This document shows positions 2-25,792 of a DNA stretch of 37,809 bases, piece after piece. The position numbers and the translations under genes were made by a program. The stretch's first letter is position 1, and every line of letters begins with the position of its first letter. A model generated the notes under the pieces. It saw only the letters and a program-made list of their open reading frames with translations. It was not told the DNA's origin and did no database searches. Source of the stretch: Ectothiorhodospiraceae bacterium (GTDB lineage: Bacteria; Pseudomonadota; Gammaproteobacteria; Nitrococcales; Aquisalimonadaceae); contig JAFIFU010000033.1 in NCBI GenBank assembly GCA_020831885.1, forward strand, positions 1-37,809. The letters are read 5' to 3'.

Positions 2-625
2 AATGGCAGGATCGGCGGAAACCGGAATTTACGCTGCGAACTGCGGAACTTGGGGGGGCTGTGTGTTGCGAGCGGAACCGCGCTCCCCCAGCACGATCAT
101 GGCGCACACGGGGAGCGCTCGCCCTATGCCGGCATGGAAACGCGCGAGATCAAGTCGCTGTCCGCCAGTGACATCGAGGAATTGCGCAGCGGAGGGGGCT
201 GGGGGCTGGCCTTGCCCGCCGAGTTGAACGGCGTGCCCGGCCCGCGACACCTGCTGGAACTCAAGGAGGAGATCGCCTTGTCAGCCGAACAGGTGACGCA
301 GGTTGAGGCGCTGTTCGAAGCGATGCGCACCGAGGCCATTCCCGCCGGCGAGCGCCTGATCGAAGCCGAGGCGGCCATCGAGCAGGCATTCGCCGAGAGG
401 AACGTGGACGCGGATTCACTACGACGGCTCCTCCAGGCGGCGGAATCGGCGCGCACGGAGCTGCGCTTCATCCACTTGTCACAGCATTACAAGACCCTGG
501 ACCTACTGCACCCCGAACAGATCGCCCGTTACAAGGTGCTGCGGGGCTACGCGGATGATCCCTGCGACAATGTGCCGGAAGGCCATGATCCGGCCAGATA
601 CCGCCGCCACATGGGCTGCGACTGA
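2..625 (+). CDS. Spy/CpxP-like periplasmic protein, 5' end uncertain or outside window
   Basis: The frame is open from the window edge to the stop at 623-625. The stretch LGGLCVASGTALPQ followed by HDHGAHGE looks like the end of a signal peptide and a His-rich mature start, so the true start is probably upstream; TTG at 50 is the only candidate inside. Then come SPYAGMETREIKSLS, a conserved GLALPAELNGVPGPRH block and long amphipathic helices ending in LLHPEQIARYKVLRGY, which resembles the LTxxQ-type repeat of Spy/CpxP chaperone and metal-resistance proteins. Such proteins are periplasmic and bind unfolded proteins or metals. The family assignment rests on pattern recognition; the exact function is unknown. 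It is convergent with the CoA ligase at 701 and appears unrelated to the catabolic island. Confidence 0.7.
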   Translation, partial: NGRIGGNRNLRCELRNLGGLCVASGTALPQHDHGAHGERSPYAGMETREIKSLSASDIEELRSGGGWGLALPAELNGVPGPRHLLELKEEIALSAEQVTQVEALFEAMRTEAIPAGERLIEAEAAIEQAFAERNVDADSLRRLLQAAESARTELRFIHLSQHYKTLDLLHPEQIARYKVLRGYADDPCDNVPEGHDPARYRRHMGCD

Positions 626-687
626 TAGGGCCTGCGAGCCGCACCTGGCCCCCGAACACGCTGCAAAGCCAGAGCACCATGGGAATA

Positions 688-707
688 GATCAGCGCTTCC
701 TTAACCC
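688..707 (+). repeat. GATCAGCGCTTCC repeat at a gene end, copy A
   Basis: GATCAGCGCTTCCTTAACCC covers the stop codon of the first CoA ligase (701-703, minus strand). It matches 29886-29905 at 18 of 20 positions, at the stop of the BisC-type gene, and shares AGCGCTTCCTTA with 34682-34693. Confidence 0.4.
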
Positions 708-2263
708 ACTTTCCGACCTTGACTCCAGTATTTATCTCTCACTTCCCGTCTCAGAATTTTTCCAACAGGGCTCAACGGCAGCTCATCAACGAACGCGATG
801 GATTTTGGTGATTTGTATTTCCCTATTCTCTGTTTAACGTGGTTCTTCAGTTCGTCCTCCGTAACCTGAAACCCTTTCTTCAATACCACCTCCGCGTGCA
901 CCGCTTCGCCCCATTCTTCATGGGGCACACCGACCACGGCGGCCATCATCACCGCCTCATGGGAACTGACCGCGGCCTCCACCTCGTTGGCATATATGTT
1001 GAACCCGCCGGAAATAATCATATCTTTCTTTCGATCAACAATGTAGACATACCCTTGGCTATCTATGTACCCGATATCCCCGGACTTCCAAAAACCATCA
1101 ACGAACTCCTCTTTGGTTTTTTCCGGGTCATCCAAGTACCCCAAACAGGTTGATCGTGACCTCATCCAAAGTTCGCCCTTTTCCCCGGCGCGCACCTGCC
1201 TTCCGTTGTCATCCATTACCAGCAACTCAACGCCCGGCGTGATCTTCCCGGCCGACGCCAGGCGGGCCGCATCCTCCCCCTCGCCCACGAGGTGGTCTTT
1301 CGTTCCAAGGCTCGTGGCAAATGCGAAATGCTCTGTCGAACCATAGAGCTGGATAAAAATATTCCCGAATCGTTTCTGAAGATCCTGCAGCTTGGATGGA
1401 CTCATTGGTGCGGCGCCGTAAAACATGTATCTCAGTGTGCTGAGATCGGATTCCGACTCAAGCAGCCGATAAAGCAATGTTGGGACGAGCATGCCATGGG
1501 TAACAGCTTCTCTATCAATATTCTCACAGTAGACCCCTAAATCAGGTTGATTCTGAGTAATATTGGTGGCTCCAGAGTAAAAGGCGGGAATCGTGAGCAT
1601 CCCGCTTCCATGACTTATCGGCGCAACATGCAGCAGCCTGGCGTCCGGCGCCCATACCTTGTCATCCAGCGCGAAGGCGGTGTCCCGCACGTTCAACCAG
1701 TTATCGATGCTGTACATGGCCGGCTTTCCCCTGCCGGTCGTTCCACCTGTGAACCGTATAACCGCGCAATGATCACGATCGTCAAGCGCAATGTCCAGGT
1801 TCTCCGTCGAGGCAGCATTCACCAAGTCCCAGAAATACAGCACGCCCTCGTGTTCCGGCAGCGGATCATCCATGCAAACCACCGTCAATCCTCTGTCCCG
1901 AAACATCTCAAGGTGAGTCGCAAGCAGCGTCTTTTCCACGAACACGACTTTTACGTGCGCGCGTTCCATCTGCCATCCATGCTCCTCCAGTGAGTCTCTG
2001 TAGTTGGTCAAAGCACAGGTGGCGGGCGTCTTGAAAATGGTTGGGAAATGCAACAAGGAAAGATTATCGTTCTCCAATATACTCATATAAACATCATCTT
2101 TCCTAAGGCCCAGCTCATGGTATATCGCGTTTGCTATTTTATTAGTTAGAAAATGAAATTCTTTATAGGTATACCGCCTGTTATTATCAATATTGACCAA
2201 AGCTTCGTTGTCGCCAAACCTGGATACCAGCGCCTCAAAATGATTGAAAAAATTGACTTTCAT
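701..2263 (-). CDS. AMP-forming acyl-CoA ligase (ANL superfamily)
   Basis: This 520-residue protein forms an acyl-adenylate and then an acyl-CoA from a carboxylic acid; the substrate is unknown. The ATP-binding motif FTGGTTGRGK lies at about 171-180, followed by LYGSTEHF, the hinge region SGDIGYIDSQG, DRKKDMIISGGFNIYANEVE and a C-terminal PLSPVGKILRREV carrying the catalytic lysine. The start chosen is MKVNFF at 2263 because GGAGGAG lies just upstream; an in-frame ATG at 2278 has no such site. It is the last gene of the minus-strand TRAP/thiolase operon and is followed by a convergent gene. The part encoding the N-terminus is strikingly AT-rich (19 of 60 bases G or C at 2041-2100), unlike neighbouring genes, which hints at a different origin. 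Confidence 0.93.
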   Translation of the reverse strand: MKVNFFNHFEALVSRFGDNEALVNIDNNRRYTYKEFHFLTNKIANAIYHELGLRKDDVYMSILENDNLSLLHFPTIFKTPATCALTNYRDSLEEHGWQMERAHVKVVFVEKTLLATHLEMFRDRGLTVVCMDDPLPEHEGVLYFWDLVNAASTENLDIALDDRDHCAVIRFTGGTTGRGKPAMYSIDNWLNVRDTAFALDDKVWAPDARLLHVAPISHGSGMLTIPAFYSGATNITQNQPDLGVYCENIDREAVTHGMLVPTLLYRLLESESDLSTLRYMFYGAAPMSPSKLQDLQKRFGNIFIQLYGSTEHFAFATSLGTKDHLVGEGEDAARLASAGKITPGVELLVMDDNGRQVRAGEKGELWMRSRSTCLGYLDDPEKTKEEFVDGFWKSGDIGYIDSQGYVYIVDRKKDMIISGGFNIYANEVEAAVSSHEAVMMAAVVGVPHEEWGEAVHAEVVLKKGFQVTEDELKNHVKQRIGKYKSPKSIAFVDELPLSPVGKILRREVRDKYWSQGRKVG

Positions 2264-2343
2264 AGCTCCTCCACACAATTCAAATCAAACCAGGTCTTAG
2301 CTTCATTCTGAGACTCTGCGCAACCCAAGGGAAGCAGTCCAGA

Positions 2344-3924
2344 TCACTTGGAACCCTTCAATTCGTCTTGTGCAGCGGCACGAAGCACCTTCTTGTCAAG
2401 TTTCCCGTATGCCGTCAACGGCAAGTCGTCGACAAATTTCACCATTTTTGGTCGCTTATACGCTGACAATTCGCCACGACAGTGATCCTTGACGTCTTGT
2501 TCCGTCAAAGTCGCCCCGGCCTCCGGAACGATAAACGCTGAAACGGCCTCGCCCCAGTCAGGATGCGGAACGCCAATGACGCACACCTGGCCCACTCCGG
2601 GACAACCCTGAATGGCGTTTTCCACCTCGGTGGTATAGACGTTCATTCCGCCAGAAATGATCATGTCTTTGCTACGGTCCAGCAGGTAGATATAACCATC
2701 CTCGTCCTGCTTGGCGATGTCTCCGGTCATAATCCAACCGTTGACCAATGTCTCGGCCGTCTTCTCCGGCAGGCCGTGATAGCCCAGCATCGCGTACGGT
2801 GCACGCACTGCGAGTTCACCGCTCTCACCGACCGGCACCGGAGCACCTTCACCATCGATGATGCGAACCTCCGCCATGGTGACAGGCTGCCCACAACTCT
2901 TGAGACGGTGAACAACCGATTCGTCGACCCGGTGCTCCTCTCTCCGCAACCGGGTAATCAGATTGGGCACTTCCGTTTGCCCGTATATCTGCATGAACAC
3001 CGGCCCGAATCGGGCCAACCCCTCTCTCAGCCTGTCGACGGTGATCGGTGCGGCACCATACACGACCGTGCGCAGCGAACTCAGATCCGCGTTCCTCTCC
3101 TTCAGCCTGTCCAGAAGCCTGTAGATCATGGTTGGCACAAGGAAAGTGAACGTAACCTTCTCCTTTTCGATCCGGTCAATGACCTTGTCGGTATCGAAAC
3201 GGACATCAACGAAATGCGTAGCACCCTTCAGAAGCGCAGCCAGCATCAAGAATCCGGCGGCGTGGGGCAACGGCGATGACAGAAGAATGCGCTCGTCGTC
3301 CAGGAACCCCAGCTCGGCGATATGGGATAACATGTCCAGCGCTATGGTCCGCTGCGTGTGGAGAACCCCCTTCGGAACACCCGTTGTTCCACCGGTATAA
3401 CCGATCATTGCCAGGTCATTCTCTTCAACCTGAACCTCCGGCGGCCCGGAAACGTTCTCCGCCATAAATTCCTGCCAGGAAACGAACCCGCTTGGGCACT
3501 CCTCCGGCGACGCGATACCAACGATGGTTTCCAACTCCGGCCATGCAGTTCTGTTACTCTTGAATACTTCGAAGAAATTCTTCCCAACAATGGCTACCCG
3601 GGCATTGCTATCCTTGATGATATGCTTGATCTCTTTTTCCCCAAGCATATCGTTCAAAGGCACCTTTGTCGCACCGGCTTGAATAATACCCTGATCCGCA
3701 ATTGCGTACTCAATGCAGTTCGACATTGCCAAGGCGACTCGAACATTTCTTCCCACCCCTTGCCGGGTCAACGCATGCGCGACTTTACATGCGGATTCGA
3801 ACAAGGCTCTATAGGTGATGCGATCATCGGCGCATACCATAGCTAATTTGTCACCGAATCTTGGCAAGGCGTTAGCGTAAATTCTGTTTAATGTCAGGCC
3901 CGCACTGACCTCGTCGTTCAACAT
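2344..3924 (-). CDS. AMP-forming acyl-CoA ligase (FadD/LcfB-like, ANL superfamily)
   Basis: This 526-residue protein is a second CoA ligase of the operon. It shows the ATP-binding motif YTGGTTGVPKG (177-187), the adenine-side motif IYGQTE, TGDIAKQDEDGYIYLLDRSKD, ISGGMNVYTTEVE and a C-terminal LTAYGKLDKKVLR with the adenylation lysine. The start at 3924 has GGAG about 8 bases upstream. It lies 50 bp after the crotonase-like gene and 80 bp before the next ligase, all on the minus strand. It is only moderately similar to its downstream neighbour (YGQTE against YGSTE, different N-termini), so the two are unlikely to be a recent duplication and may activate different acids or pathway intermediates. 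Confidence 0.94.
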   Translation of the reverse strand: MLNDEVSAGLTLNRIYANALPRFGDKLAMVCADDRITYRALFESACKVAHALTRQGVGRNVRVALAMSNCIEYAIADQGIIQAGATKVPLNDMLGEKEIKHIIKDSNARVAIVGKNFFEVFKSNRTAWPELETIVGIASPEECPSGFVSWQEFMAENVSGPPEVQVEENDLAMIGYTGGTTGVPKGVLHTQRTIALDMLSHIAELGFLDDERILLSSPLPHAAGFLMLAALLKGATHFVDVRFDTDKVIDRIEKEKVTFTFLVPTMIYRLLDRLKERNADLSSLRTVVYGAAPITVDRLREGLARFGPVFMQIYGQTEVPNLITRLRREEHRVDESVVHRLKSCGQPVTMAEVRIIDGEGAPVPVGESGELAVRAPYAMLGYHGLPEKTAETLVNGWIMTGDIAKQDEDGYIYLLDRSKDMIISGGMNVYTTEVENAIQGCPGVGQVCVIGVPHPDWGEAVSAFIVPEAGATLTEQDVKDHCRGELSAYKRPKMVKFVDDLPLTAYGKLDKKVLRAAAQDELKGSK

Positions 3925-3974
3925 GTAAATCTCCTCAAACTCTGATTGAAGGCGACCAAAACACGCATCAAATC

Positions 3975-4772
3975 TCAGCGCCCTTTGAAACTGGGCGTCA
4001 CCCGATTTCGGAATGCCTCAACGCCTCGCAGATAGTCCTCACTTCTGAAGCAATCATTTGCCAAAGCAAGCAGGGACTCAAGTTCAGCTTGCTCACCGGA
4101 ACGACCGGAACAAAGGATCGCTTGCTTTACCGCCCTGATGGTAAGCGGTGCGTTACGTGAAATGCCTCGAATCAATCTGCCCGACATTAATTCGAACGCA
4201 TCCGACTTGAATACTTCCGTAGCAAAACCCATGGATTTTGCGTCAAACGCATCATACCGTTCCCCGGTATAAAGCAATCGGGATGCGTTCGCGGCCCCAA
4301 CCAGCTTCACCAGACTGAACACCCATCGTGGATCATATCCAACACCCAGTTTGGCGGCTGGTATTCCGATGACAACATCGTCTCGAAGGAGGCGCATATC
4401 ACAGGAAGCCGCAATAGCCGTTCCGGCACCCAGACAATACCCACGAATTTCTGCTACTGTTGGAATCGGGACAGCTTCCAATACCGCCAACGTTTCCTGA
4501 ATACGATCGTTGACATTGGCGACCCCGCCCTCGTCAACGCTTCGTGGGACGAGATCACTGATGTCCGAACCTGAGGAAAATGCCTTTTCCCCCTCACCTT
4601 GTATACTGATAACCCTAATTTCAGGTGAAGAAGACAATTCAACGAGCGCATCACGTAATGAACCCCACATTTCGAGATTCATTGCGTTCAAGTTCTGCTC
4701 ATTGGAAAGCGTGATCTTGCCAACACCTTCATCCGAGGTGAACCTGACAGTCCCTGAATGTCTATTCCTCAT
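3975..4772 (-). CDS. Crotonase-fold protein lacking both hydratase glutamates
   Basis: This 265-residue protein has the enoyl-CoA hydratase/isomerase fold: an AFSSGSDI oxyanion-hole segment (64-71), GYCLGAGTAIAASCD (111-125) and the terminal SFKGR-type end. Aligned by the conserved CD to rat enoyl-CoA hydratase, the positions of Glu144 and Glu164 are Ala119 and Ala139, so neither classical catalytic acid is present. The family also includes isomerases, hydrolases, dehalogenases and ring-cleaving enzymes that use other residues. It starts at 4772, 5 bp after the stop of the hydrolase gene, with GAGGG upstream, so the two are tightly coupled. The reaction is unknown; ordinary beta-oxidation hydration is unlikely. 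Confidence 0.9.
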   Translation of the reverse strand: MRNRHSGTVRFTSDEGVGKITLSNEQNLNAMNLEMWGSLRDALVELSSSPEIRVISIQGEGEKAFSSGSDISDLVPRSVDEGGVANVNDRIQETLAVLEAVPIPTVAEIRGYCLGAGTAIAASCDMRLLRDDVVIGIPAAKLGVGYDPRWVFSLVKLVGAANASRLLYTGERYDAFDAKSMGFATEVFKSDAFELMSGRLIRGISRNAPLTIRAVKQAILCSGRSGEQAELESLLALANDCFRSEDYLRGVEAFRNRVTPSFKGR

Positions 4773-4777
4773 AGCGA

Positions 4778-5557
4778 TTATCCCTCAAGCTTTTCATGCT
4801 TCTTCAGGAACTCCCCTATCACCTCATTGCAGGCATCAGGCGCATCGATCGTGGCGGCATGTCCGGCGCCGGGAATGACCACCAAAGTGCTATCCGTCAT
4901 GCGCTGGTGCATGAATTCAGCGGCGCGCCGGAGCTGGGTATCATGTTCACCAGCGATAAGAAGGGTCGGCACGGCAACGGAACCCAGCATTCGAACAATG
5001 GTGAAACCTTCCCTGGTCAACGTGTGTCGGGCAACGTTGACCAACCCCCGATGATCCTTGTGGCCGGCGCTTTCAGTTCCGGTCCCTTCCAGCAGCGGTA
5101 TGGAGGTGAGTCCACGGAGACCATGCCGCTCAATCTCGCGCGCGTAGACCTCAGCCATGTCGTTGCCCTCCCGTTGCGAAGCGGGGGTTGCGTATCCGGG
5201 GCCTGCACCGATCAGCACCAGCGCCTTGACCTTCAAGGGGTGTTTCAGGAAATACTCCAGGGAGAGCAACCCGCCCAACGAAAACCCGATCAGCACGGCC
5301 TCGTGGGCACCGGCTTCCGATAGGGTTTCATCCATGTAGCGGACGCAGGATTCCACATGATAGGCCGTGTCCTCGGGCGGCGCCTCGGACTCGCCATGTC
5401 CGATGAGGTCCCAGACAATCGTCTGGTAGTCCTTCTGGAAACGGGTGACTTGCTTTTCCCACATTCTGCCGCTGCCGGCAAAACCGTGGGTGAACAGCAG
5501 CGTCCTGCCTTCCCCACGTATGCTGCAGGCGATCTTCGGCCGGCTTCGTGGTTGCAT
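4778..5557 (-). CDS. Alpha/beta hydrolase
   Basis: This 259-residue alpha/beta-fold hydrolase has the oxyanion segment HGFAG (24-28), the nucleophile elbow GFSLGG with Ser93, the acid in GEHD (Asp206) and the histidine in GAGH (His233), a complete catalytic triad. There is no signal peptide, so it acts in the cytoplasm. Proteins of this shape include enol-lactonases, C-C bond hydrolases and thioesterases; the sequence does not decide between them. It lies 52 bp after the TRAP large permease gene and 5 bp before the crotonase-like gene, on the same strand. GGGGGA precedes the ATG at 5557. In this operon a role in ring opening, ester cleavage or CoA release is plausible but inferred. Confidence 0.92.
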   Translation of the reverse strand: MQPRSRPKIACSIRGEGRTLLFTHGFAGSGRMWEKQVTRFQKDYQTIVWDLIGHGESEAPPEDTAYHVESCVRYMDETLSEAGAHEAVLIGFSLGGLLSLEYFLKHPLKVKALVLIGAGPGYATPASQREGNDMAEVYAREIERHGLRGLTSIPLLEGTGTESAGHKDHRGLVNVARHTLTREGFTIVRMLGSVAVPTLLIAGEHDTQLRRAAEFMHQRMTDSTLVVIPGAGHAATIDAPDACNEVIGEFLKKHEKLEG

Positions 5558-5609
5558 TCATTCCCCCATCCCATTGCAAGCGGCAATCCCCAGACCGCGC
5601 ATCCCACGC

Positions 5610-6974
5610 TCAGCCGTAGATCAACCGAGGCAGCCACCTGGCCAGTTCATCAAACTGGAACACCAGGAACAGCCCTGTAAGCTGTATCAGAACGAATGGC
5701 GCAACCCCGAAATAGATATCTTTTGTTGAGATTTCGGGTGGACAAACGCCCTTGATATAGAACAAGGCTGGACCGACGGGCGGCGTCAAGAAGGAGGTCT
5801 GCAAGCAGATCGCGAACAGTATCGAGAACCACAGAGGGTCCACTCCAAGACTGAAAACAACAGGCGCCACGAGGGGCAAAATGATCAACGTGATCTCGAT
5901 CCAATCAAGAAAGAATCCCAGAATGAATACCAGACCTAAAATTGCCAGCACAATTCCCGCTTCGCCAAACGGAAGTCCTATAATCGCATCCCGAATGACG
6001 TCGTCACCACCAAGCCCTCTCAGCACCGACGCAAAGATGGTTGCACCGATGAAAATGCCGAAGATAAAAGCAGTTGTAAGGCTTGTTCGGCGCACCGAGT
6101 CGGCAAGCACAGAAAAATTGAGCTTGCCATACAGCGCCGCCAGAAGAATTGCCCCAAACGCGCCCACTGCAGATGCTTCGGTCGTTGTCGCTATGCCTGC
6201 AACAATGGATCCAAGGACGGCGACAATCAGGCCGAGGGGAGGCAGCACGGCCCATAACACACCGACAATCTGTCGCCAACCCAGCGGCTCCCGATCTCGC
6301 GGCGCCGGGGCGAAATCCTTCCTCAAATAGGAGGCCGCTATGATATAGATGATGTACATCAGCCCCAGCAATAATCCGGGCACCAATGCCGCCATGAAAA
6401 GCCGGCCCACCGAAGCCTCAGGCGTACTTAACCGATCCGCCAGCAGGACAAGCATGATGCTGGGGGGAATCAGGATACCCAGGGTCCCAACCGCTGAGGC
6501 CGTGCCGGCGGTCAGGCCCTTGTTATATTTGGCCGCCAACATCGGACCTATGGACAGCATTCCTAGTAAAATCACCGATGCGCCCACGATGCCAGTGGAC
6601 GCCGCCAGCAGAACCCCCACAAGCACGACGGTGATGGCGTAGCCGCCGCGTAGGCCGGCGAAGACGCGGACCAGGGAAGTCATCAGACGCTCGGCAACGC
6701 CGGACCTGTCCAGCATCAGCCCCATGAAGATAAACAGCGGAACGGCAACCATGAGCTCGTTTGCCACAATGCCGTAAATCCGCCGGTCCAGAACCCCGAT
6801 GGTCCCCCCCCAGGTGAACCAGATATCCACCAGGAAGTTTTCAACGAGAATATGACCCACAACGGCGAACAGAAACCCGACACCGGCCAGAGCCCAAGCC
6901 ACTGGAAAGCCAAGCATGAGCAAGGTCATGAAGGCCGAGAACATTGCAATCACGAGATAGTGCTCAGCCATCAT
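5610..6974 (-). CDS. TRAP transporter large permease (DctM family)
   Basis: This 454-residue integral membrane protein has about a dozen hydrophobic segments and DctM-family features: LMLGFPVAWALAGV near the N-terminus, PLFIFMGLMLDRSGVAERL, a glycine-rich GTLGILIPPSIMLVLLADRL segment and, near the C-terminus, LTPPVGPALFYIKGV. DctM subunits form the ion-coupled translocation path of tripartite ATP-independent periplasmic transporters in the inner membrane. The ATG overlaps the TGA of the small permease gene (ATGA at 6971-6974), so the two are translationally coupled. A second in-frame ATG follows immediately. With the periplasmic binding protein encoded at 8046-9146 it makes a complete three-part importer. 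Confidence 0.95.
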   Translation of the reverse strand: MMAEHYLVIAMFSAFMTLLMLGFPVAWALAGVGFLFAVVGHILVENFLVDIWFTWGGTIGVLDRRIYGIVANELMVAVPLFIFMGLMLDRSGVAERLMTSLVRVFAGLRGGYAITVVLVGVLLAASTGIVGASVILLGMLSIGPMLAAKYNKGLTAGTASAVGTLGILIPPSIMLVLLADRLSTPEASVGRLFMAALVPGLLLGLMYIIYIIAASYLRKDFAPAPRDREPLGWRQIVGVLWAVLPPLGLIVAVLGSIVAGIATTTEASAVGAFGAILLAALYGKLNFSVLADSVRRTSLTTAFIFGIFIGATIFASVLRGLGGDDVIRDAIIGLPFGEAGIVLAILGLVFILGFFLDWIEITLIILPLVAPVVFSLGVDPLWFSILFAICLQTSFLTPPVGPALFYIKGVCPPEISTKDIYFGVAPFVLIQLTGLFLVFQFDELARWLPRLIYG

Positions 6975-7600
6975 GACACTTCCCCATTGATGTGCTTACC
7001 GGAGGCGCCGTTCCGATTTGGCGTATACGGCCTGGGGAAACCGAATATCAGGGTGCAGCAACGGGTCACACGGGAAATCATGGCCACGATCACCAGGGAA
7101 ATCCCAATCGGAAGCATGCTTTTCACGATGAACCGGTAAGGGAGTCCGCTCGGGGCCTGGGAACGCTCACCTCTAATATATGACCGCCATGCGTACTGAA
7201 TGAGCTCCTCCAGTACGATAAAGAGCAGAGGAAGGACGAGGCAGACAATGGCCAGAATCTCTATCCAGCATTTCACTTTTGGAGAAAACTTCTCTCTGAG
7301 AACATCCACCCGGACATGATCATCGGTGACGACGGCGTAGGCCAGGGTGAGCATCATTGCTGCGCCGAACAGATGCCACGAAAGCTCTTCCAAGGCAATG
7401 GAACCCCGCCCCAGAACAAAACGACCGAAGACATTCGTAAGGACAACAGCTAACGTCACTATCCAAAGCCAGGAAACGGTGCTGCCGAATAAGCTTATTC
7501 CTCCATCCACCCAGAAACTGAACTTATTCTGCGGCAGGTCGTGCTTGGCACCAAAGCTTTTGCTGCTGGGGCTTTGTTTATACATAGGCGAAGTCTTCAT
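6971..7600 (-). CDS. TRAP transporter small permease (DctQ family)
   Basis: This 209-residue membrane protein has four hydrophobic segments, as expected for DctQ subunits, and the family pattern of WIVTLAVVLTNVFGRFVLGRG, then ELSWHLFGAAMMLTLAYAVVTDDHVRVDVL and a late membrane helix (SMLPIGISLVIVAMISRV). DctQ scaffolds the large permease in the inner membrane. The start at 7600 is supported by AAGGA upstream; MYKQ at 7585 is an alternative with a weaker site. The N-terminus is longer and more polar than usual. It is separated from the binding-protein gene by an unusual 445-bp gap and overlaps the large permease gene by 4 bp. Confidence 0.93.
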   Translation of the reverse strand: MKTSPMYKQSPSSKSFGAKHDLPQNKFSFWVDGGISLFGSTVSWLWIVTLAVVLTNVFGRFVLGRGSIALEELSWHLFGAAMMLTLAYAVVTDDHVRVDVLREKFSPKVKCWIEILAIVCLVLPLLFIVLEELIQYAWRSYIRGERSQAPSGLPYRFIVKSMLPIGISLVIVAMISRVTRCCTLIFGFPRPYTPNRNGASGKHINGEVS

Positions 7601-7899
7601 TATTCCTTCGGTTTTTCAGCATCAAACCATGCCGGTTCTCGGGCGTAATCGACGCCTGGTATCGGCCGGCCGGCATCTGGCTTATCGGATAAGTACTGTT
7701 TCCGAGCGCTGTTGCTGCGCCACGGGAATGACACGGTAGACATCGTCGATGGGGGAATCGATTGGGGGACATTCACCTTGGCCCTGCTGAATATCTTGCG
7801 GGTTGCGCATGAGGGGTACTGGGAACAACGCCAGCGCGGTGTGTTTCAGTCAATGCGTAAAGCAGGCACGCATGGACTCCGATTCCATCAACCGTATGG

Positions 7900-7917
7900 A
7901 CCCGTACCGGTACGGGT
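7900..7917. promoter_or_regulatory. 18-bp perfect palindrome
   Basis: ACCCGTACCGGTACGGGT equals its own reverse complement. It lies about 300 bp upstream of the small permease start within the TRAP operon gap. It could be an operator for a dimeric regulator or the stem of a hairpin with loop CCGG. No local regulator can be assigned to it. Confidence 0.45.
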
Positions 7918-7980
7918 TCGCCCATGCATGTGACCAGCGGCACACCCGTCATCCCCCCAGGGGCCATATGCGCGTGTCTT

Positions 7981-8033
7981 CCGCGGGGGGGGGCGGGCCC
8001 GGGGGGGGGGGCACCCTGGCCGCCCCCCCGCCA
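7981..8033. repeat. G/C homopolymer tracts with hairpin and G-quadruplex potential
   Basis: On the plus strand there is a run of 9 G (7985-7993), then GGG, CCC, a run of 11 G (8001-8011) and, after about 11 bases, a run of 7 C (8023-8029). The G11 and C7 runs can pair as a strong stem just after the stop codon of the TRAP binding-protein gene, and the G runs can form a quadruplex on the plus strand. No U tract follows on the minus-strand transcript. Such runs are also prone to slippage and sequencing error, so the exact lengths are uncertain. Confidence 0.5.
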
Positions 8034-8045
8034 CGTGGATGAACC

Positions 8046-9146
8046 TTAGCGAACGCCAGAAGGCAGATAACCGCGTTCCGCCCATTCGCTGTATTCTTCG
8101 GCAAAGGCGCGCTGGCTCTCCAGGACGCGGGCGAAGAACTCATCATCCGCGGCCATTTCATCCAGAACCTCATTGCTGATGTCCCGGATTTTACGCAGGT
8201 CCTCGTCAGGCAGGACCAGGGGGGTAATGCCCAGCTCGTCGAACTCCCGCAGTACTGCGGCCTGCCGTTTCTCCGTGTCGACCAAGGTCAACATGGTCGC
8301 GGCCATGCATGCGGTTTCCAGCATGTGTTTGGTGGTGTCTTCCAAGCCATCCCACACATCCTTGTTGATCATCAAGTGTGTGGTCGTGTTCGGCTGTGCC
8401 CAGTCCGGCAGCATGTAGTACGGGGCGATCTCATGGAAACCGAACGCGCGCCCAACCGCCGGCTGCCCCAGCTTCGCCGCATCCACAACGCCACGCTCCA
8501 GGGCCTGGTAGGTGTCCCCGGCGGGGATCATGGAGATGTTTGCGCCGAGCCTGGAAAGCACATGGGCGCCAATCCCCGGGAACCGGATTGTCAGACCGTC
8601 GAAATCTTCGATGCTCGTTATGGACTGCCGGAACCATCCGACGAGCTGCGGACCGGTGATGCCGCAGAGAAGCGCATGAATATTCCGCTCGTGATACATC
8701 TCGTTGAGCAGTTCCTTCCCGCCGCCCACGTAATGCCACGAAGAGAAGCCGACCGGATCCATGGCGAACGGCACAGTGGAGAAGAGCGGGCTGGCAGGCA
8801 TGGAGCCTTCGTCATACGCGGTGTACGTGAAACCCGCCGGATAACGGCCTTCGCCAACCGCATCACTGACTTCAAACGGGGGAATCAACTCCCCGGGCTC
8901 GTAGATCCGCAGTGTTATCGAACCGCCGGACATTCCGGTCAATGACTTGGACGCGTGGACAATCGCGTCCGCACCCGGCAGCGTCGTCGGCGCCCCCGTC
9001 GGGACCTGCCACCTGACGCGCTCGCTGGCAACGGATTGCGCCAGGGGTACAGCGGACAGGCCCGCGGCAATCAGCAGGGTGCAGAGAAGCCCTTGGGATT
9101 TTCTCACCCCGGTCCGGACTGGCTTCGTACTGTGGCGTGCATTCAT
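8046..9146 (-). CDS. TRAP transporter periplasmic binding protein (DctP family, TakP-like)
   Basis: This 366-residue periplasmic solute receptor delivers a ligand to the small and large permeases. The start is MNARHST at 9146, preceded by GGAGGAG; the longer frame to 9200 has no such site. A signal peptide follows: basic residues, then LLCTLLIAAGLSAVPLAQSVAS, and a mature protein starting near SERVRWQVP. The family arginine is in GWFRQSI, which in DctP proteins binds a ligand carboxylate. The pattern of GELIPPFEVSDAVGEGRY, GITGPQLVGWFR and MINKDVWDGL resembles the alpha-keto-acid receptor TakP rather than the C4-dicarboxylate receptor, but the ligand is not determined. It lies 161 bp after the thiolase gene. 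Confidence 0.93.
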   Translation of the reverse strand: MNARHSTKPVRTGVRKSQGLLCTLLIAAGLSAVPLAQSVASERVRWQVPTGAPTTLPGADAIVHASKSLTGMSGGSITLRIYEPGELIPPFEVSDAVGEGRYPAGFTYTAYDEGSMPASPLFSTVPFAMDPVGFSSWHYVGGGKELLNEMYHERNIHALLCGITGPQLVGWFRQSITSIEDFDGLTIRFPGIGAHVLSRLGANISMIPAGDTYQALERGVVDAAKLGQPAVGRAFGFHEIAPYYMLPDWAQPNTTTHLMINKDVWDGLEDTTKHMLETACMAATMLTLVDTEKRQAAVLREFDELGITPLVLPDEDLRKIRDISNEVLDEMAADDEFFARVLESQRAFAEEYSEWAERGYLPSGVR

Positions 9147-9263
9147 GAATTCTCCTCCACTTTGCTCAAGTTGGTTGTCGTCTGATTGAGGCATTGGCAA
9201 ACGTTCCGGTCAGAGACCGGAACAGCGTGTCGCTTGTGGTCTGTTCCACCTTTCAGGGCTTCA

Positions 9264-9275
9264 GAAGCGCTGATC
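9264..9275 (-). repeat. GATCAGCGCTTC repeat copy
   Basis: The 12-mer GATCAGCGCTTC, read on the minus strand here, lies in the gap between the thiolase and TRAP binding-protein genes. The same 12-mer occurs on the plus strand at 688-699 and 29886-29897, beside the stop codons of two minus-strand genes, and a shorter relative lies at 10699-10709. All copies are in noncoding DNA. Confidence 0.35.
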
Positions 9276-9307
9276 GGTTCCCATGGCCCGAGTGCGCTGA
9301 CTCGGCA

Positions 9308-10501
9308 TCATCCCGCCTGGTAAAGCGTTACCACGCATGCTCCGCCAAGCCCCAGATTATGCTGCAGCGCGGTACGGGCACCGTCCACCTGGCGTTTGTC
9401 CGCGGTACCGCGGAGTTGGCTGGTCAGTTCGTAGCACTGGGCGAGTCCTGTCGCGCCAAGAGGATGCCCCTTGGAGAGCAGCCCACCGGAAGGGTTTGTC
9501 ACGGTCTTTCCGCCGTAGGTGTTGTCACCGTTTGCGATAAACTCCCCGGCGCCACCCTCCGCACACAGCCCGAGGCCTTCGTAGGTGATCAGTTCGTTTT
9601 GCGCGAAACAGTCGTGCAACTCGCAGACGTCGACATCCTCCGGACCGACCCCCGCAGCCTCGTAAACCTGCTTACTCGCGGCAACCGTCATGTCGTAACC
9701 AACCAACGAAATCATGCTCTGGTTATCGAAGGTGCCGGGCCGGTCTGTGACCATGGATTGCGCTTCGATGCGCACATGTCTGCCAAGGCCGTGCTTCCTG
9801 GCGTATGCATCGGAAACCAGCACGGCGGCAGCGGCCCCGCAGGTGGGCGGGCATGCCATCAGCCGGGTTAACACGCCGGGCCAGATATCGGGGGATGCCA
9901 GGACTTCCTCCGGCGTCAACTGGTTCCGGAACACAGCCAAAGGGTTGTTTGCCGCGTGGCGGCTGGCTTTCGCGCGGATCGCCGCGAAATCTTCCAATGT
10001 GGTCCCGTACTTCTCCATGTGATGCAGCCCTGCACCACCGAAGTACCGCAAGGCCAGAGGGATTTCCTCATTCCCCACCAGGGCATCGCACACCTGGTCG
10101 AAGTTTTCGAAAGCACTGGGCCTGTCGTCGAACACGGTTCCAAGCGCACCGGGTCGCATCTGTTCGAAACCCAAAGCAAGGACACAGTCCGCCGCGCCGG
10201 ACTCAATCGCCTGCCTGGCAAGGAATAACGCGGTAGAACCGGTAGAACAGTTGTTGTTCACGTTCACGATGGGCACGCCGGTGAGTCCGACGCGATACAA
10301 CGCCTTCTGGCCGCTTGTGGAATCCCCATAGACGTAGCCCGCATAGACCTGCTGGATCTGTGCGTAATCCACGCCGGCGTCCTTCAGGGCTTCCCGCGTC
10401 GCTGCCGCACCCATCAGGTCATACGGGTCCGAGCCTCCTGGTTTTGCGAACTTGATCATTCCAACGCCCGCAACAAGGGCTTTACCGTTGCCGTGAGTCA
10501 T
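9308..10501 (-). CDS. SCP2-type thiolase (acetyl-CoA C-acyltransferase family)
   Basis: This 397-residue thiolase-fold enzyme would catalyse thiolytic cleavage of a 3-ketoacyl-CoA or a related C-C bond reaction. Visible active-site residues are the nucleophile Cys85 in NNNCSTGS, His296 and Cys298 in ELHDCFAQNE, the HDCF motif of SCP2-type thiolases, and His346 in SKGHPLGATG. It lacks the CxG cysteine at the C-terminal end of classical thiolases, which is normal for the SCP2 type. It is the first gene of the minus-strand operon with the TRAP transporter and two CoA ligases. It is divergent from the ECHDC3-like gene across a 479-bp region. No DUF35 partner, often found with thiolase-like aldolases, is seen. 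Confidence 0.93.
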   Translation of the reverse strand: MTHGNGKALVAGVGMIKFAKPGGSDPYDLMGAAATREALKDAGVDYAQIQQVYAGYVYGDSTSGQKALYRVGLTGVPIVNVNNNCSTGSTALFLARQAIESGAADCVLALGFEQMRPGALGTVFDDRPSAFENFDQVCDALVGNEEIPLALRYFGGAGLHHMEKYGTTLEDFAAIRAKASRHAANNPLAVFRNQLTPEEVLASPDIWPGVLTRLMACPPTCGAAAAVLVSDAYARKHGLGRHVRIEAQSMVTDRPGTFDNQSMISLVGYDMTVAASKQVYEAAGVGPEDVDVCELHDCFAQNELITYEGLGLCAEGGAGEFIANGDNTYGGKTVTNPSGGLLSKGHPLGATGLAQCYELTSQLRGTADKRQVDGARTALQHNLGLGGACVVTLYQAG

Positions 10502-10980
10502 AGTCGAGACACCCTGAGATTAACCGGCTAGTCAGTAACCAATCTACCGCGTTCGTTATTGAAGTCAATCCTGGCCAGGCCTGTCCACCAGCCAGGGGCT
10601 CCGCCATTGCGCCGCGACCGGCGTACTGAAGGATTTCATGTGAAACCGCAGTCGCGGGGAGCTCCGCTGTGGACCGGTTGACGCGTCAGCGGCCCGATGG
10701 AAGCGCTGACATATTCAGGCTGTCGGCCTCGAGACCGGTTTTGGTTCGTGGCCGGGAGCAGTGTGCCGCAGGTCGTGGTTCCACCTGTGCCGGCCTGGGA
10801 CACAGCCAGAGGCGAAAACCACCTGAGCCCCAAGGGGTTACGGACAGATGTCTCGCAAAGAGGCCCATCACGCCGCGGTTGACAGCGCCCGAAGACAAAT
10901 CTACCATCAAGTTAATAAAATATCTTTAAAGTCAGTCTCTATATCGTTGTCTTCATTCTGCCTCTTACAGGATTTCAGTC
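10502..10980. promoter_or_regulatory. Divergent promoter region, thiolase/TRAP operon and ECHDC3-like gene
   Basis: This 479-bp noncoding region separates two divergent genes. It holds an operator-like site at 10523-10536 near the thiolase start, a 10-bp palindrome TGACGCGTCA (10679-10688) and an AT-rich stretch (10910-10945) before the ECHDC3-like gene that could hold its promoter. No gene in it can be supported. Confidence 0.5.
10523..10536. promoter_or_regulatory. TetR-type operator-like site, copy 1
   Basis: ACCGGCTAGTCAGT is an imperfect palindrome centred on CTAG, starting 22 bp upstream of the thiolase start codon. It matches ACTAACTAGTTGGT beside the TetR gene at 9 of 14 positions, including the central CTAGT. 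The position suits repression of the thiolase/TRAP operon. The assignment is inference. Confidence 0.45.
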
Positions 10981-11772
10981 ATGTCGGATACTCAGGAACT
11001 CGTCAGCCGTGAGGATCACGGCGCCGTGTGCCGCCTTAAGCTGAACAGGCCCGAGCAGGGGAACAGCCTTTCACTGGCGACCATCAACGCATTGCACGAG
11101 GCCCTCAGGGCCTTGCGGGACGAGCCCGAGATCGCCGTCATCATCCTGAGCGGCGTTGGGGGAAGGATTTTCTGCGCCGGTCATGACTTGCGCGAATTCG
11201 ACGGTACGGACGATCCGGAGTTCTACCATGAGGTCTCCACACGGTGCTCCGCCATGATGCAGGCGATTCAGGGGCAACCGCAGATCGTGGTGGCTGAAGT
11301 GGAGGGCGTGGCCTCGGCAGCGGGCTGTCAACTTGTAGCGGCCTGCGACCTGGCCGTTGCGTCGGCGGGTGCCCGATTCGCCACGCCGGGGGTCAATATC
11401 GGCCTGTGGTGCCTGACCCCGATGGTGGCCCTCAGCCGGGCGGTGCAAACCAAGCACGCCATGGAGATGCTCTGCACGGGACGATTGGTGGACGCGGAGC
11501 ACGCGTTCAGGATAGGACTGGTAAACCGCGTCGTTCCGGCAGAGGCACTGGCCAGTGAAGTGATGAACCTGGCGACGGAGATCGCTTCTAAGTCGACCTA
11601 CACGCTGGCGCTGGGCAAAGAGGCTTTCTACCGCCAGCAACAGATGCCGGTCGCTGACGCCTACGCGTACGCTGGTGAACTGGTATCCCGGAACATGGCG
11701 CACCATGACGCGCGTGAAGGTATCCGGGCGTTCGTCGAAAAGCGTAGTCCCGCGTGGAAGGGGCGCGGATAG
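10981..11772 (+). CDS. ECHDC3-like crotonase-fold protein
   Basis: This 263-residue protein resembles the ECHDC3 branch of the crotonase superfamily: VEGVASAAGCQLVAACDLAVAS, then FATPGVNIGLWCLTP and late GKEAFYRQ and DAREGIRAFVEKRSPAWKG segments. At the positions of the two hydratase glutamates it has Gln117 and Gly137, as ECHDC3 proteins do, so it is not expected to hydrate enoyl-CoA. The oxyanion-hole segment FCAGHDLRE (64-72) is intact, so it probably still binds acyl-CoA. AGGA precedes the ATG at 10981. It is divergent from the thiolase operon and convergent with the TetR gene. The biochemical role of this branch is poorly defined. Confidence 0.92.
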   Translation: MSDTQELVSREDHGAVCRLKLNRPEQGNSLSLATINALHEALRALRDEPEIAVIILSGVGGRIFCAGHDLREFDGTDDPEFYHEVSTRCSAMMQAIQGQPQIVVAEVEGVASAAGCQLVAACDLAVASAGARFATPGVNIGLWCLTPMVALSRAVQTKHAMEMLCTGRLVDAEHAFRIGLVNRVVPAEALASEVMNLATEIASKSTYTLALGKEAFYRQQQMPVADAYAYAGELVSRNMAHHDAREGIRAFVEKRSPAWKGRG

Positions 11773-11855
11773 CCGGTCCGGAACCGCTGCACCAGATAAC
11801 CAGCCGTCCGGTTTCCGCAGAGAGCACCGTTGGCACACGCTGAACGCCAACTGGT

Positions 11856-11875
11856 GCCGCTTGTTTAGCGGCTTT
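11856..11875 (+). terminator. Small terminator-like hairpin after ECHDC3-like gene
   Basis: GCCGCT (11856-11861), loop TGTTT and AGCGGC (11867-11872) form a 6-bp stem followed by TTT. It lies between the convergent ECHDC3-like and TetR genes and overlaps the TetR stop codon. The stem is short and the T run minimal, so it is a weak candidate. Confidence 0.4.
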
Positions 11876-12500
11876 GGCGAATCCCCTCACTGAACATGGA
11901 TGTAAATTCCGCGGCAATGGTTTCGCCCGGCAGATCACCATCCGGCCGGAACCAGCGCGTCATCCAGTTCACTGCTCCCATGAAGAAGAAACAGGCCAGC
12001 TTCGGGTCCACCTCCCGGATACTTCTTTCCTCAATGCCTTCCCGCACGATGGCCTTGAAAACCTCTTCGAAGTCATCCCGACGACGCAGCACGATTTCAC
12101 GCCGTTTGCTCTCCAGGGCATTGAATTCCGCCAGCACGGCGAAGGATCCCATCTCGCCGGTGATGAGTTCGATATAGCGCTGGCAGAACAGCGTGATCTT
12201 GTCGTGCGCATTCTTGCCGTGGGCGCGGGCGTAATCCAGCGCCTGATCCCCGAGATCCAGTGCGAGCATATGACACTCGAAGAGTATCTCCTGCTTGCTC
12301 TTGACGTAGTAGTAAAGCGCAGCCTTGGTCACCCCCAGCGAAGCGGCAACATCATCGAGAGAGGTGTTGTGATATCCGTTGGCACTGAAGGCTCGCGCCG
12401 CCTCCCGGAGCAAGGCCATGCGCTTGAGCTGGAACTGCTCATCCCTGCTGGGGAACACGGCACTCCAGGGGCCGGTGGCTTTTTTCTTTCTCGTCGCCAT
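11865..12500 (-). CDS. TetR-family transcriptional regulator
   Basis: This 211-residue protein has an N-terminal helix-turn-helix: AARAFSANGYHNTSLDDVAASLGVTKAALYYYVKSKQEILFE, with the recognition helix at about 56-66 (GVTKAALYYYV). The C-terminal part is all-helical and would bind a ligand, probably an acyl-CoA given the neighbours. Many TetR regulators of this look (FadR, PsrA and KstR types) repress acyl-CoA degradation genes and are released by acyl-CoA. ATG at 12500 is chosen; GTG at 12503 directly precedes it in frame. It is convergent with the ECHDC3-like gene and divergent from the next crotonase gene, whose upstream region has a near-perfect palindrome. It is the only dedicated DNA-binding regulator in the catabolic island, so it is the likely controller; its target sites are inferred. 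Confidence 0.93.
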   Translation of the reverse strand: MATRKKKATGPWSAVFPSRDEQFQLKRMALLREAARAFSANGYHNTSLDDVAASLGVTKAALYYYVKSKQEILFECHMLALDLGDQALDYARAHGKNAHDKITLFCQRYIELITGEMGSFAVLAEFNALESKRREIVLRRRDDFEEVFKAIVREGIEERSIREVDPKLACFFFMGAVNWMTRWFRPDGDLPGETIAAEFTSMFSEGIRQSR

Positions 12501-12753
12501 CACCTACATCCTCGCTACTTCGCCATTCCCTGCGTCCGCCCAACCGCCGAACCCGTGCCGGGCGCACAAGCCGTGAGCCACACGCCTGCAGGACCGCGTG
12601 TGCTCGGTAAACCGGGCGCCCCCGACTCAGGCCGCGCATATTAACCTCAAAGTCACATGGTTTCCAGCGCGAGACAGCCAGTGGACCGGAACCTCTCCCT
12701 CCGGGGTTCTGCGGTCGACAAAAATCTCTGTCAGGATCGCCACATACGACAAA

Positions 12754-12769
12754 TACTAACTAGTTGGTA
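12754..12769. promoter_or_regulatory. TetR-type operator-like site, copy 2 (best palindrome)
   Basis: TACTAACTAGTTGGTA is a 16-bp palindrome with a single mismatched pair, centred on ACTAGT. It lies 69-84 bp upstream of the crotonase start, in the intergenic region next to the TetR gene. This is the usual place and shape for an autoregulatory TetR operator. Binding is inferred. Confidence 0.55.
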
Positions 12770-12790
12770 ATTTTATTTACTGATAAAATT
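12769..12790. promoter_or_regulatory. AT-rich inverted repeat AATTTTAT-N6-ATAAAATT
   Basis: A perfect 8-bp inverted repeat with a 6-bp spacer directly abuts the TetR-type operator candidate, 48-69 bp upstream of the crotonase start. It may be a second protein-binding site or may overlap the promoter core; the composition is far more AT-rich than the surroundings. Confidence 0.35.
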
Positions 12791-12837
12791 CAGGATATAC
12801 CCATCACCAACGTTTGACAATTGAATCAGGTGACGCA

Positions 12838-13620
12838 ATGGATTCATCACGCTACCAGATGATTGATGTCGTACGGCATGGCCGTGTTCTCGAACTGGCG
12901 TTCAACCGCCCGGACGCGTTGAACGCCATCAACGAGGAGTTGCACGACGAACTGGGCGACATCTTCTACGATGCCGCTCTGGACCGGGATTCGGACATCC
13001 TGCTGATCACCGGGCGGGGCCGGGCCTTTTCGGCCGGTGGTGATCTGCAATGGGCCCGGGGCATGGCCGAAGACCCGAACCTGTTCGAGCGGACGGCACT
13101 TCGTGGCAAACGGATCGTCTACTCCATGCTGGACTGTGAGAAGCCCATCGTCGCCAAGGTCAACGGTCCGGCCATGGGCCTGGGCGCAACCATCGCGCTG
13201 TTTTCGGACGTGATCTTTGCAGCGCAATCCGCGGTGATCGCGGATCCTCATGTCACTGTCGGCGTCGTCGCCGGCGATGGGGGTGCGGTCATCTGGCCGC
13301 AGCTCATCGGTTATGCCCGTGCCAAGGAGTACTTGCTAACCGGGAAGAGCATCACCGCATCAGACGCCGCCGCCATGGGCCTGATCAACCATGCCGTACC
13401 GGACGCCGAACTGGACGCTGCCGTCAATGCGTTTATCGATGTGCTGCTGGAACGCCCGGTTCGCGCCCTGCGCTGGACCAAGGCGACAGCCAATATCGGA
13501 CTGAAACAACTGGCCCACAGCATGATGGATGCCGGGCTTGCCTATGAGGGCGCCACGGCCCGATCCCATGAGCATCTTCACAGGCTGGACGCATTTTTCA
13601 AAAGCCGGGACAAGAACTAA
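12838..13620 (+). CDS. Crotonase-fold protein with Thr/His at hydratase glutamate positions
   Basis: This 260-residue crotonase-superfamily protein has AFSAGGDL (64-71, oxyanion hole), NGPAMGLGATIALFSD and ADPHVTVGVVAGDGGA. Alignment to rat enoyl-CoA hydratase puts Thr118 and His138 where Glu144 and Glu164 should be. The DPHV and VAGDGG segment marks a distinct subgroup rather than random decay, since the rest is well conserved. The start chosen is MDSSRYQ at 12838 with AGGTGA upstream; the in-frame TTG at 12814 has no good ribosome site. It stands alone on the plus strand, divergent from the TetR gene and convergent with the hydrolase gene at 13717. Its reaction is unknown; a CoA-thioester isomerase or hydratase with different acid-base residues is possible. 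Confidence 0.91.
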   Translation: MDSSRYQMIDVVRHGRVLELAFNRPDALNAINEELHDELGDIFYDAALDRDSDILLITGRGRAFSAGGDLQWARGMAEDPNLFERTALRGKRIVYSMLDCEKPIVAKVNGPAMGLGATIALFSDVIFAAQSAVIADPHVTVGVVAGDGGAVIWPQLIGYARAKEYLLTGKSITASDAAAMGLINHAVPDAELDAAVNAFIDVLLERPVRALRWTKATANIGLKQLAHSMMDAGLAYEGATARSHEHLHRLDAFFKSRDKN

Positions 13621-13692
13621 GGCGGCGTTCGCAGGCAATGGCCCTGGTGGTCCTTGTCAGGAACGCCTACGCAGCTCACCGCGCGCGATGGG

Positions 13693-13710
13693 CCCGCCCT
13701 GCGGGGCTTT
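13693..13710 (+). terminator. Short GC hairpin between convergent genes
   Basis: CCCGC, loop CCT, GCGGG, then GCTTT forms a 5-bp stem with a short T run, just before the stop of the convergent hydrolase gene. A longer inverted repeat, GGCGTTC (13624-13630) and GAACGCC (13661-13667), lies just upstream. Either could end transcription of the crotonase gene; both are weak. Confidence 0.3.
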
Positions 13711-13716
13711 GCGGAG

Positions 13717-14595: not shown

Positions 14596-14663
14596 GGAGC
14601 CCCCATACGGTATACGCAGGAACACAGCCGTTCCTGCGTATTGTCAGCGTGACAGCGAAATCA

Positions 14664-15833: not shown

Positions 15834-15913
15834 GATCAACTCCTCCTGCTTATCATTGTGCTCCGCCACGACGGGCGTCCCTGCTCCCTGTCTGACGAGA
15901 AACCAAGGCCCGT

Positions 15914-16687: not shown

Positions 16688-16739
16688 CTTTCACTCCTCT
16701 ATTCATGCCACCTCGCAACAAGGGCGAGATGTGTTGACA

Positions 16740-17978: not shown

Positions 17979-18035
17979 CACTTTCCTCCTCGTTGGTGGT
18001 TCGCGCCGCAGTCGGCGGCGAACGCGACCGGAGAG

Positions 18036-20273: not shown

Positions 20274-20318
20274 TATCCCCTGACACAAGGGGCCAAGCGT
20301 TCAGAAGCGATTGTCATG

Positions 20319-20342
20319 CCCCGGCGGCTGCCGCCGCCGGGG
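20319..20342 (+). terminator. Perfect 10-bp GC hairpin between crotonase and PaaK-like genes
   Basis: CCCCGGCGGC, loop TGCC, GCCGCCGGGG form a perfect 10-bp stem. No T run follows, so it may be an attenuator, RNA-stability element or pause site rather than a simple terminator. A small CCCC/GGGG repeat (20277-20292) lies just before it. Confidence 0.45.
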
Positions 20343-20365
20343 TGGCGTGCCAGACAGGAGGGGCT

Positions 20366-21583: not shown

Positions 21584-21593
21584 CGCAGGAATC

Positions 21594-23777: not shown

Positions 23778-23835
23778 GATTTCCCCTCCACAACCGGCCC
23801 TTGGGCCGAACACGCCTTTCCCAATGCCATCCCCG

Positions 23836-25787: not shown

Positions 25788-25792
25788 GGCAA

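Follow-up and report, generated by a model that had tools for sequence, protein, structure and literature searches.

What acid does a transporter import when its genes stand among enzymes of coenzyme A (CoA) chemistry, and where did that transporter come from? The question is raised by a tripartite ATP-independent periplasmic (TRAP) importer locus in an Ectothiorhodospiraceae bacterium (GenBank assembly GCA_020831885.1, contig JAFIFU010000033.1). The window analysed here is that whole contig, 37,809 nucleotides (nt) and designated C70, of a 4.13-Mb genome in 129 contigs. Using open reading frames and Pfam/NCBIfam profiles, we identified eight consecutive genes on the minus strand at 701-10501, in transcription order an SCP-x thiolase, dctP, dctQ, dctM, an alpha/beta hydrolase, a crotonase-like protein, ligase 2 and ligase 1. 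Their domain scores far exceed the cut-offs, which bears out the classes and strand given in an earlier, sequence-only reading of this DNA. Gene content, permease kinship and site substitutions found in two loci suggest an answer that we put forward tentatively, at a little less than an even chance: a copied 3-hydroxybutyrate importer was given new enzymes and a rebuilt receptor in which a lysine replaces the bound cation.

All three TRAP components score above their profile cut-offs (PF03480, PF04290 and PF06808 for DctP, DctQ and DctM). The binding protein DctP (8046-9146, minus strand; PF03480, 126.8 bits) had been described as TakP type with the carboxylate-binding arginine, and the comparison with structures agrees. 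TakP (2HZK) is its best solved relative (198 bits). TakP is a dimer with a swapped C-terminal helix, and the alignment of window DctP to it reaches chain residue 346 of 365. Cation-ligand and ligand positions map onto TakP without gaps in the HMMER alignment, which places the TakP letters at their published numbers except for chain residue 213, which is Thr. In the sections of the TakP paper available to us (PMC1839085), the carboxylate of pyruvate contacts Tyr100 and Arg177. A cation, interpreted as Na+, is coordinated by Gln156, Glu240, the carbonyl of Trp215 and, in bidentate fashion, Glu214. The cavity is lined by Y99, F40, V97, V245, A212, A213, P243, T153 and I47.

Window DctP keeps three of these contacts (residues are counted from a TTG at 9200; the likely start is the ATG at 9146 behind GGAGGAG). 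R206 (codon 8583-8585; this and the following codons on the minus strand) corresponds to Arg177, which forms the carboxylate salt bridge, Y129 to Tyr100 and Q185 (8646-8648) to Gln156. It departs from TakP with K243 (8472-8474) for the bidentate ligand Glu214, Q269 (8394-8396) for Glu240, L244 for Trp215, A128 for Tyr99 and A70 (8991-8993) for Phe40 of the cavity wall. The cation site thus reads Q185/K243/Q269, neither Gln156/Glu214/Glu240 nor the Glu/Glu/Gln variant described below, and carries no carboxylate side chain at any TakP cation-ligand position, a loss that the earlier reading had missed. Judged by these residues, window DctP is probably best treated as a TakP-clade member and not filed as a cation-dependent 2-oxo acid receptor.

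The same positions divide a 79-row DctP alignment, made of fetched best matches and not of a random sample, which includes the window twice (as a duplicate locus row) and a second locus of the same genome, C58. At TakP positions 156, 214 and 240, 34 rows are Tak-type (Gln/Glu/Glu, one with Asp) and 39 are HB-type (Glu/Glu/Gln). Glu and Gln are therefore exchanged between positions 156 and 240, and two carboxylates are kept in both classes. The window, its duplicate row and C58 are Lys-type (Gln/Lys/Gln), with no carboxylate kept; the three other rows comprise two distant proteins with His and one with Gln/Glu/Gln. In the 76 rows other than the three Lys-type rows, the Glu214 position is Glu in 73, Asp in one and His in two, the latter only 24-28% identical; one further row, added later, has Glu. 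Across the 73 HB-type and Tak-type rows, D250 is invariant and E243 varies only once, to Asp, and R206 is arginine in 79 of 79 rows. Position 70 is aromatic in 35 of 39 HB-type and in 34 of 34 Tak-type rows.

Outside the window, a Lys-type DctP was found only on C58 (L038, 9462-12435), where it lies beside a ligase with DctQM not adjacent. The C58 DctP is 67-68% identical to window DctP, and the C58 ligase 67-68% identical to ligase 2. Ratios of nonsynonymous to synonymous differences (pN/pS) between window and C58 were 0.29 for DctP and 0.26 for the ligase, with synonymous sites near saturation, and both proteins are therefore under constraint. The two Lys-types have in common G69, A70, A79, G116, A146, T230, K243, G245, G250, P260 and D266, none of which exceeds 5% of the rows in the Tak-type or the HB-type class. 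The pair had no further close relative when we searched the order (54 genomes), the phylum (398) and the class (369; overlapping samples, with five best candidates scored per genome in the latter two); the next matches had about half the score (420 versus 800 bits) and carried Glu where the sequence was read. Plasmid records held 469 DctP matches, all below 60% identity, the best at 37% among the 15 matches listed. Contig scans confirmed no named relative of window DctP; these scans used exact short peptides, which exclude close relatives only, and may have left out the bacterium's own genome. Just upstream of the C58 pair, at 12968-14626, lies a chemotaxis-type receptor gene (methyl-accepting chemotaxis protein with PAS domain).

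The permease genes, dctQ (6971-7600, minus strand; PF04290, 78 bits) and dctM (5610-6974, minus strand), point to an ancestry. In 30 genomes searched, the nearest DctM outside the bacterium's own genome were those of G001, G002, G004 and G007 (74-78% identity). In seven genomes (G001, G002, G004, G020, G162, G229 and G265; loci L042, L043, L044, L046, L169, L170 and L171), a sigma54-type activator, named by reading the sequence, lies beside DctPQM, followed by genes resembling 3-hydroxybutyrate dehydrogenase (BDH) and acetoacetyl-CoA synthetase (AACS). Both enzymes of G001 pass NCBIfam cut-offs (TIGR01963, 309 against 307; TIGR01217, 810 against 521). Of the 23 loci with a Glu-type clade DctP and DctM in view, 7 have BDH and AACS after dctM; these 7 are among the 10 with a DctM sharing 60% identity or more with that of the window. 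The G007 contig (C15) carries AACS, BDH, DctM and DctQ and then ends. In the bacterium's own genome, the activator and the start of dctP lie on C79, and BDH and AACS at the start of C85; it seems to have a BDH-AACS TRAP operon split over these contigs. The window operon has neither gene downstream of dctM, and the hydrolase, crotonase-like protein and ligases stand there instead. Our best guess for the parent system is an importer of 3-hydroxybutyrate (or acetoacetate). Because its closest permeases sit in BDH/AACS operons, the window TRAP system looks like a lineage-specific copy of this predicted importer, given new enzymes.

Receptor and permease have diverged to different extents, the receptor far more. 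Compared with G001, G002 and G004, the window proteins are 48-50% (DctP), 70-73% (DctQ) and 76-78% (DctM) identical; among themselves, these three sisters show 75-84%, 74-80% and 90-93%. A tree of 17 DctM proteins placed the window in a supported family clade (99/97, five rows; tip 0.36). In a tree of 18 DctP proteins, the window and C58 are joined together (100/100); the stem leading to them measures 1.05 changes per site and none of the eight sister DctP falls with them. Relative to the eight sister rows, one of which (G007:C386) lies on a contig too short to show the operon, site and cavity differ by E185Q, E243K, F244L, D250G, G266D, F70A, W126Y and I182T, with a small A-for-G change at position 128. 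Cavity positions other than A70 and Y126 are mostly unremarkable.

On the account that we favour, the permease would have stayed close to its relatives, the receptor would have lost both sister cation-site carboxylates (E185 to Q, E243 to K) and the large cavity side chain F70 would have become alanine. In the periplasm, DctP would hold the acid carboxylate through R206 and Y129, with the ammonium group of K243 standing in for the cation (Na+ in TakP), so that binding would be cation-free. DctQM would move the acid inward on the usual ion gradient. In the cytoplasm, ligase 2, ligase 1 or both would form the CoA thioester, which the hydrolase and the crotonase without its glutamates would reshape before the SCP-x thiolase cleaved a 3-oxoacyl-CoA. 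The loss of the aromatic at position 70 weakly suggests that the imported acid exceeds hydroxybutyrate in size, being perhaps branched, cyclic or aromatic. We consider it just short of an even call that this is a natural TRAP receptor with a lysine in place of the bound cation, a parallel among binding proteins to K+-independent pyruvate kinase, paired with a permease about 77% identical to those of cation-site sisters.

The thiolase (9308-10501, minus strand) fits the SCP-x (SCP2-type) class, scoring 682 bits against a PRK08256 cut-off of 436 and 458 bits to 6hsj, a solved relative named SCP2-thiolase (type-1); it contains NNNCSTG, HDCF and GHPLGATG, which we take to be thiolase motifs. SCP2-type thiolases act on branched and sterol-type 3-oxoacyl-CoA. 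The alpha/beta hydrolase (4778-5557, minus strand; PF00561, 106 bits) carries GFSLGG, AGEHD and GAGHA (Ser-Asp-His), and its best NCBIfam model among the 25 listed, menH, reached 119.5 bits, under the cut-off of 208.55. The crotonase-like protein (3975-4772, minus strand; PF00378, 133.6 bits) has Ala at both positions where an enoyl-CoA hydratase proper has its two glutamates; its gene has the lowest third-position GC of the operon (0.485). Because neither catalytic glutamate is present, it is probably not an ordinary hydratase.

Ligase 2 (2344-3924, minus strand) and ligase 1 (701-2263, minus strand) are AMP-forming acyl-CoA ligases with AMP-binding and C-terminal domains. Among the best 25 of 107 and 108 models, no substrate-level NCBIfam model reached its cut-off for either; the nearest was PRK06187 for ligase 2 (466.9 against 476). 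Ligase 2 is about equally like FadD8 (298.7 bits) and feruloyl-CoA synthetase (288.5 bits), and neither names its substrate. A tree was built from 31 ligases of the fetched loci, which cover part of the roughly 74 of the bacterium's genome. In it ligase 1, on a long branch, grouped with ligases of C78, C24, G002:C191, C127, C29 and G001:C62 (99/95), and ligase 2 fell in a separate clade with copies from C58 and C59. The notion of the two ligases as a conserved pair was rejected on this basis.

The change in receptor charge also admits a different ligand. The lysine could read a second negative charge, in which case a medium-chain or cyclic dicarboxylate would be imported, as proposed for azelate, and then activated by the ligases. 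Two acids lost from the sister site and a lysine gained amount to a swing of three charges, and the accessible text on the azelate system places azeTSL beside fadD and a thioesterase. However, K243 lies where the TakP cation touches the arginine-held carboxylate, not at the far end of the cavity. Moreover, G266D adds an acid, and no dicarboxylate-specific enzyme was recognised in the operon with Pfam or NCBIfam. We consider a dicarboxylate unlikely.

Do the eight genes form one unit? In transcription order they are separated by 161, 445, -4, 52, 5, 50 and 65 nt. The 161-nt gap lies between the thiolase and the dctP ATG at 9146 and the 445-nt gap between dctP and dctQ, as the sequence-only reading had measured them; the last gap is 65 nt if ligase 1 starts at TTG 2278 and 80 nt to the likelier ATG 2263, which stands behind GGAGGAGC. 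Both ligase genes and dctP have ribosome-site-like sequences in front of them. The 445-nt gap (7601-8045) contains a long G/C tract and has no terminator signal above chance. A scan of 600-11000 found no promoter-like or terminator-like site on the minus strand within it; over that whole region, promoter-like sites (5 versus 5.4 in shuffles) and terminator-like sites (10 versus 10.4) were at chance level. Its GC-rich part, 7901-8060, folded no better than shuffles (z 1.17), and the gap sequence has a single match in the genome, itself. No Rfam model matched the window at the gathering threshold. Co-transcription of the eight genes is likely.

The gaps can also be taken to mean that these are mere neighbours, with thiolase-dctP and dctQM-hydrolase-crotonase-ligases as separate transcripts in separate pathways. 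The 445-nt gap with its G/C tract, the differing GC content of the genes and a C58 DctP-ligase pair without adjacent DctQM all speak for such a division. Against it stand a single strand, remaining gaps of at most 161 nt, a DctP-ligase pairing that recurs in C58 and a terminator signal not above chance, and we think it improbable. As separate observations, the very long G and C runs at 7960-8045 could be a weak spot of sequencing or assembly, and upstream of the thiolase there are three short imperfect palindromes and, 40 nt away, one promoter-like pair (10568-10541, 9/12), though such sites are at chance level overall.

Across the genome, receptors and ligases lie close together. PF03480 identified 29 DctP genes (30 rows, two of C24 merged) and two more cut at contig ends, and PF00501 identified 74 AMP-binding places (from 75 rows, with two of C54 counted as one). 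An AMP-binding ligase lies within 5 kb of 16 of the 31 DctP places, the window's included (14 within 3 kb, 11 within 2 kb), and such surroundings make up 17% of the genome (binomial 1e-5). This proximity supports a functional link without proving one, because catabolic genes cluster anyway and the binomial is uncorrected for clustering. Uptake of an acid followed by its CoA activation, as the sequence-only reading had suggested, stands as the most economical interpretation, helped by the C58 pair and by this proximity; the ancestry of the importer and the change in its site had escaped that reading. The order ligase-DctP-ligase recurs in three clusters, C78 (L071), C24 (L072) and G002:C191 (L091), with a different DctP type, and C78 also encodes a thiolase 73% identical to the window's.

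Several further receptor genes were seen in passing. The G002:C191 contig ends in a thiolase fragment with 92% identity to the window thiolase. On C25 of the bacterium's own genome (L039, G000:C25, from 8011 onward), a Glu-type DctP, 85% identical to the G002 sister, lies beside a 587-aa ligase with DctQM not in view and is possibly another orphan receptor. Two dctP genes, on C79 (L040) and C98 (L041) of G000, stop at the same residue where their contigs end. One follows a sigma54-type activator, the other a GntR-type regulator (both named by reading), and the two are probably a collapsed near-identical repeat. Because both are cut at the same residue and BDH-AACS begins C85, the assembly probably lacks further DctQM copies. 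We therefore do not claim the window DctQM as the only permease for several orphan DctP.

More conservatively, the cargo may have stayed 3-hydroxybutyrate or a similar C4-C5 acid, with the site changes reflecting drift or fine tuning. DctM is 76-78% identical to the sister permeases, the thiolase and ligases could also suit short acids, and the cavity is mostly unremarkable apart from A70 and Y126. Against this, BDH and AACS are not in the operon yet occur elsewhere in the genome (C85), and the changes affect residues in contact with the ligand and persist in both diverged copies; we rate this possibility marginally below the separate-transcript possibility. That the Lys-type DctP is degenerate or non-binding, kept for example for sensing or for competing for the permease, is very improbable: residues that are invariant (D250) or nearly so (E243, Asp once) in 73 rows have been lost, but the pN/pS of 0.29, the absence of stops, the whole-length alignment and the retained arginine and Tyr129 speak otherwise.

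Several observations weigh against the copied-importer account with a lysine for the cation. The Lys-type is known from one genome, in two loci. The P and M trees disagree, with window DctP outside the sisters and its DctM within the family. Long-branch effects may be at work, or P and QM may have separate origins, and the placement of the stem is uncertain. GC content is uneven among the eight genes (0.505-0.613), and together with the 445-nt gap this may allow a patchwork of different sources. The 3-hydroxybutyrate parent is a prediction from context: the remaining 16 of the 23 loci (including G116, G388, G016 and G014) show nothing AACS-like in the 7.5 kb around dctP, or in the shorter stretch available at some of them, and no 3-hydroxybutyrate TRAP system was found in the literature searched, which excluded most subscription papers. 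F70A is the main argument for a larger ligand. A count of two lost cavity aromatics, considered and set aside, holds against TakP only; most HB-type rows (35 of 39) already have Gly where TakP has Tyr99, so that A128 is no loss relative to the sisters. K243 may instead be engaged by D266, an acid that both Lys-type proteins have gained, and a single-sequence AlphaFold2 model of window DctP, discarded at a mean predicted local distance difference test score of 33.5, gives no guide to the lysine geometry. Finally, the eight genes include no acyl-CoA or 3-hydroxyacyl-CoA dehydrogenase.

Candidate dehydrogenases lie 4-6 kb upstream of the operon (14664-16687). They fall in a region adjoining the operon, 10981-28722, that forms a long CoA-catabolic island with a TetR gene, an acyl-CoA dehydrogenase, a short-chain dehydrogenase/reductase, a second SCP-x-like thiolase and a CaiB-type CoA transferase. 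The island also holds three further crotonase-family genes, none with both catalytic Glu and one, at 19413, keeping one, and an apparent Liv-type ATP-binding cassette (ABC) importer (named by reading) with a gene for a 681-aa AMP-binding ligase between its subunits. Near this importer cluster are a nitronate-monooxygenase-like protein (28804-29868; PF03060) and an apparent molybdopterin-type oxidoreductase (29899-32220; named by reading).

If the lysine does replace the cation, the receptor-bound cation would be separated from the permease-driving ions within one scaffold. The available portion of the TakP paper (PMC1839085) suggested the receptor cation as a possible first step of coupled transport; a natural receptor lacking the cation site, beside a permease akin to those of cation-site systems, would make this idea testable by receptor comparison or swap. 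No TRAP receptor with a lysine in the cation site was found in the literature searched, most subscription papers being outside the search. The predicted ancestry also offers a starting point for other TRAP-ligase operons: identify the importer from which each derives, then see where its pocket has been altered.

How does the locus compare with known systems? TakP of Rhodobacter sphaeroides (2HZK/2HZL; PMC1839085) shares the arginine and the Tyr100 contact over a near full-length alignment and, in the parts of that work available, differs by Glu214 to Lys, Glu240 to Gln, Trp215 to Leu and both Tyr99 and Phe40 to Ala. The BDH-AACS TRAP operons of seven genomes are related throughout the importer (DctM 60-78%, DctQ 41-73%, DctP 40-51% identical) and likewise couple an importer to CoA activation, but all their enzymes differ, and their sites read Glu/Glu/Gln where the window has Gln/Lys/Gln, with Phe70 to Ala.

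The sequence-only reading could put no name to the combination; by analogy it can be named, after azeTSL/fadD, IctPQM and TarPQM, as far as the accessible accounts go. These azelate, itaconate and coumarate precedents mean that TRAP with CoA activation is not new. The AzeTSL azelate locus of Phycobacter (PMC10945470, in part) likewise has TRAP genes beside an acyl-CoA ligase, feeding fatty acid degradation, but has a PaaI thioesterase and one ligase and is called a C4-TRAP for a dicarboxylate. TarPQM of Rhodopseudomonas palustris (PMC3610893, in part) is clustered with the coumarate genes for CouB, a CoA ligase, and CouA, an enoyl-CoA hydratase, and differs in its aromatic phenylpropenoates and a second, ABC importer. 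Both are likened to the window by gene content, not by sequence. IctPQM of Pseudomonas aeruginosa is likewise a lineage-specific TRAP duplicate in a CoA-dependent catabolic operon; duplication and specialisation of the whole transporter is the authors' own account of that itaconate operon in the excerpts available (PMC12599236), with a C4-dicarboxylate DctPQM as ancestor and other enzymes. For the lysine itself the nearest parallel is an unrelated enzyme. K+-independent pyruvate kinases also have Glu to Lys at the cation site (Glu117/Lys117); extracts of that work report that the exchange removes the cation requirement, the lysine charge being said to substitute for the cation. The replacement is established there, and it is what we propose for window DctP.

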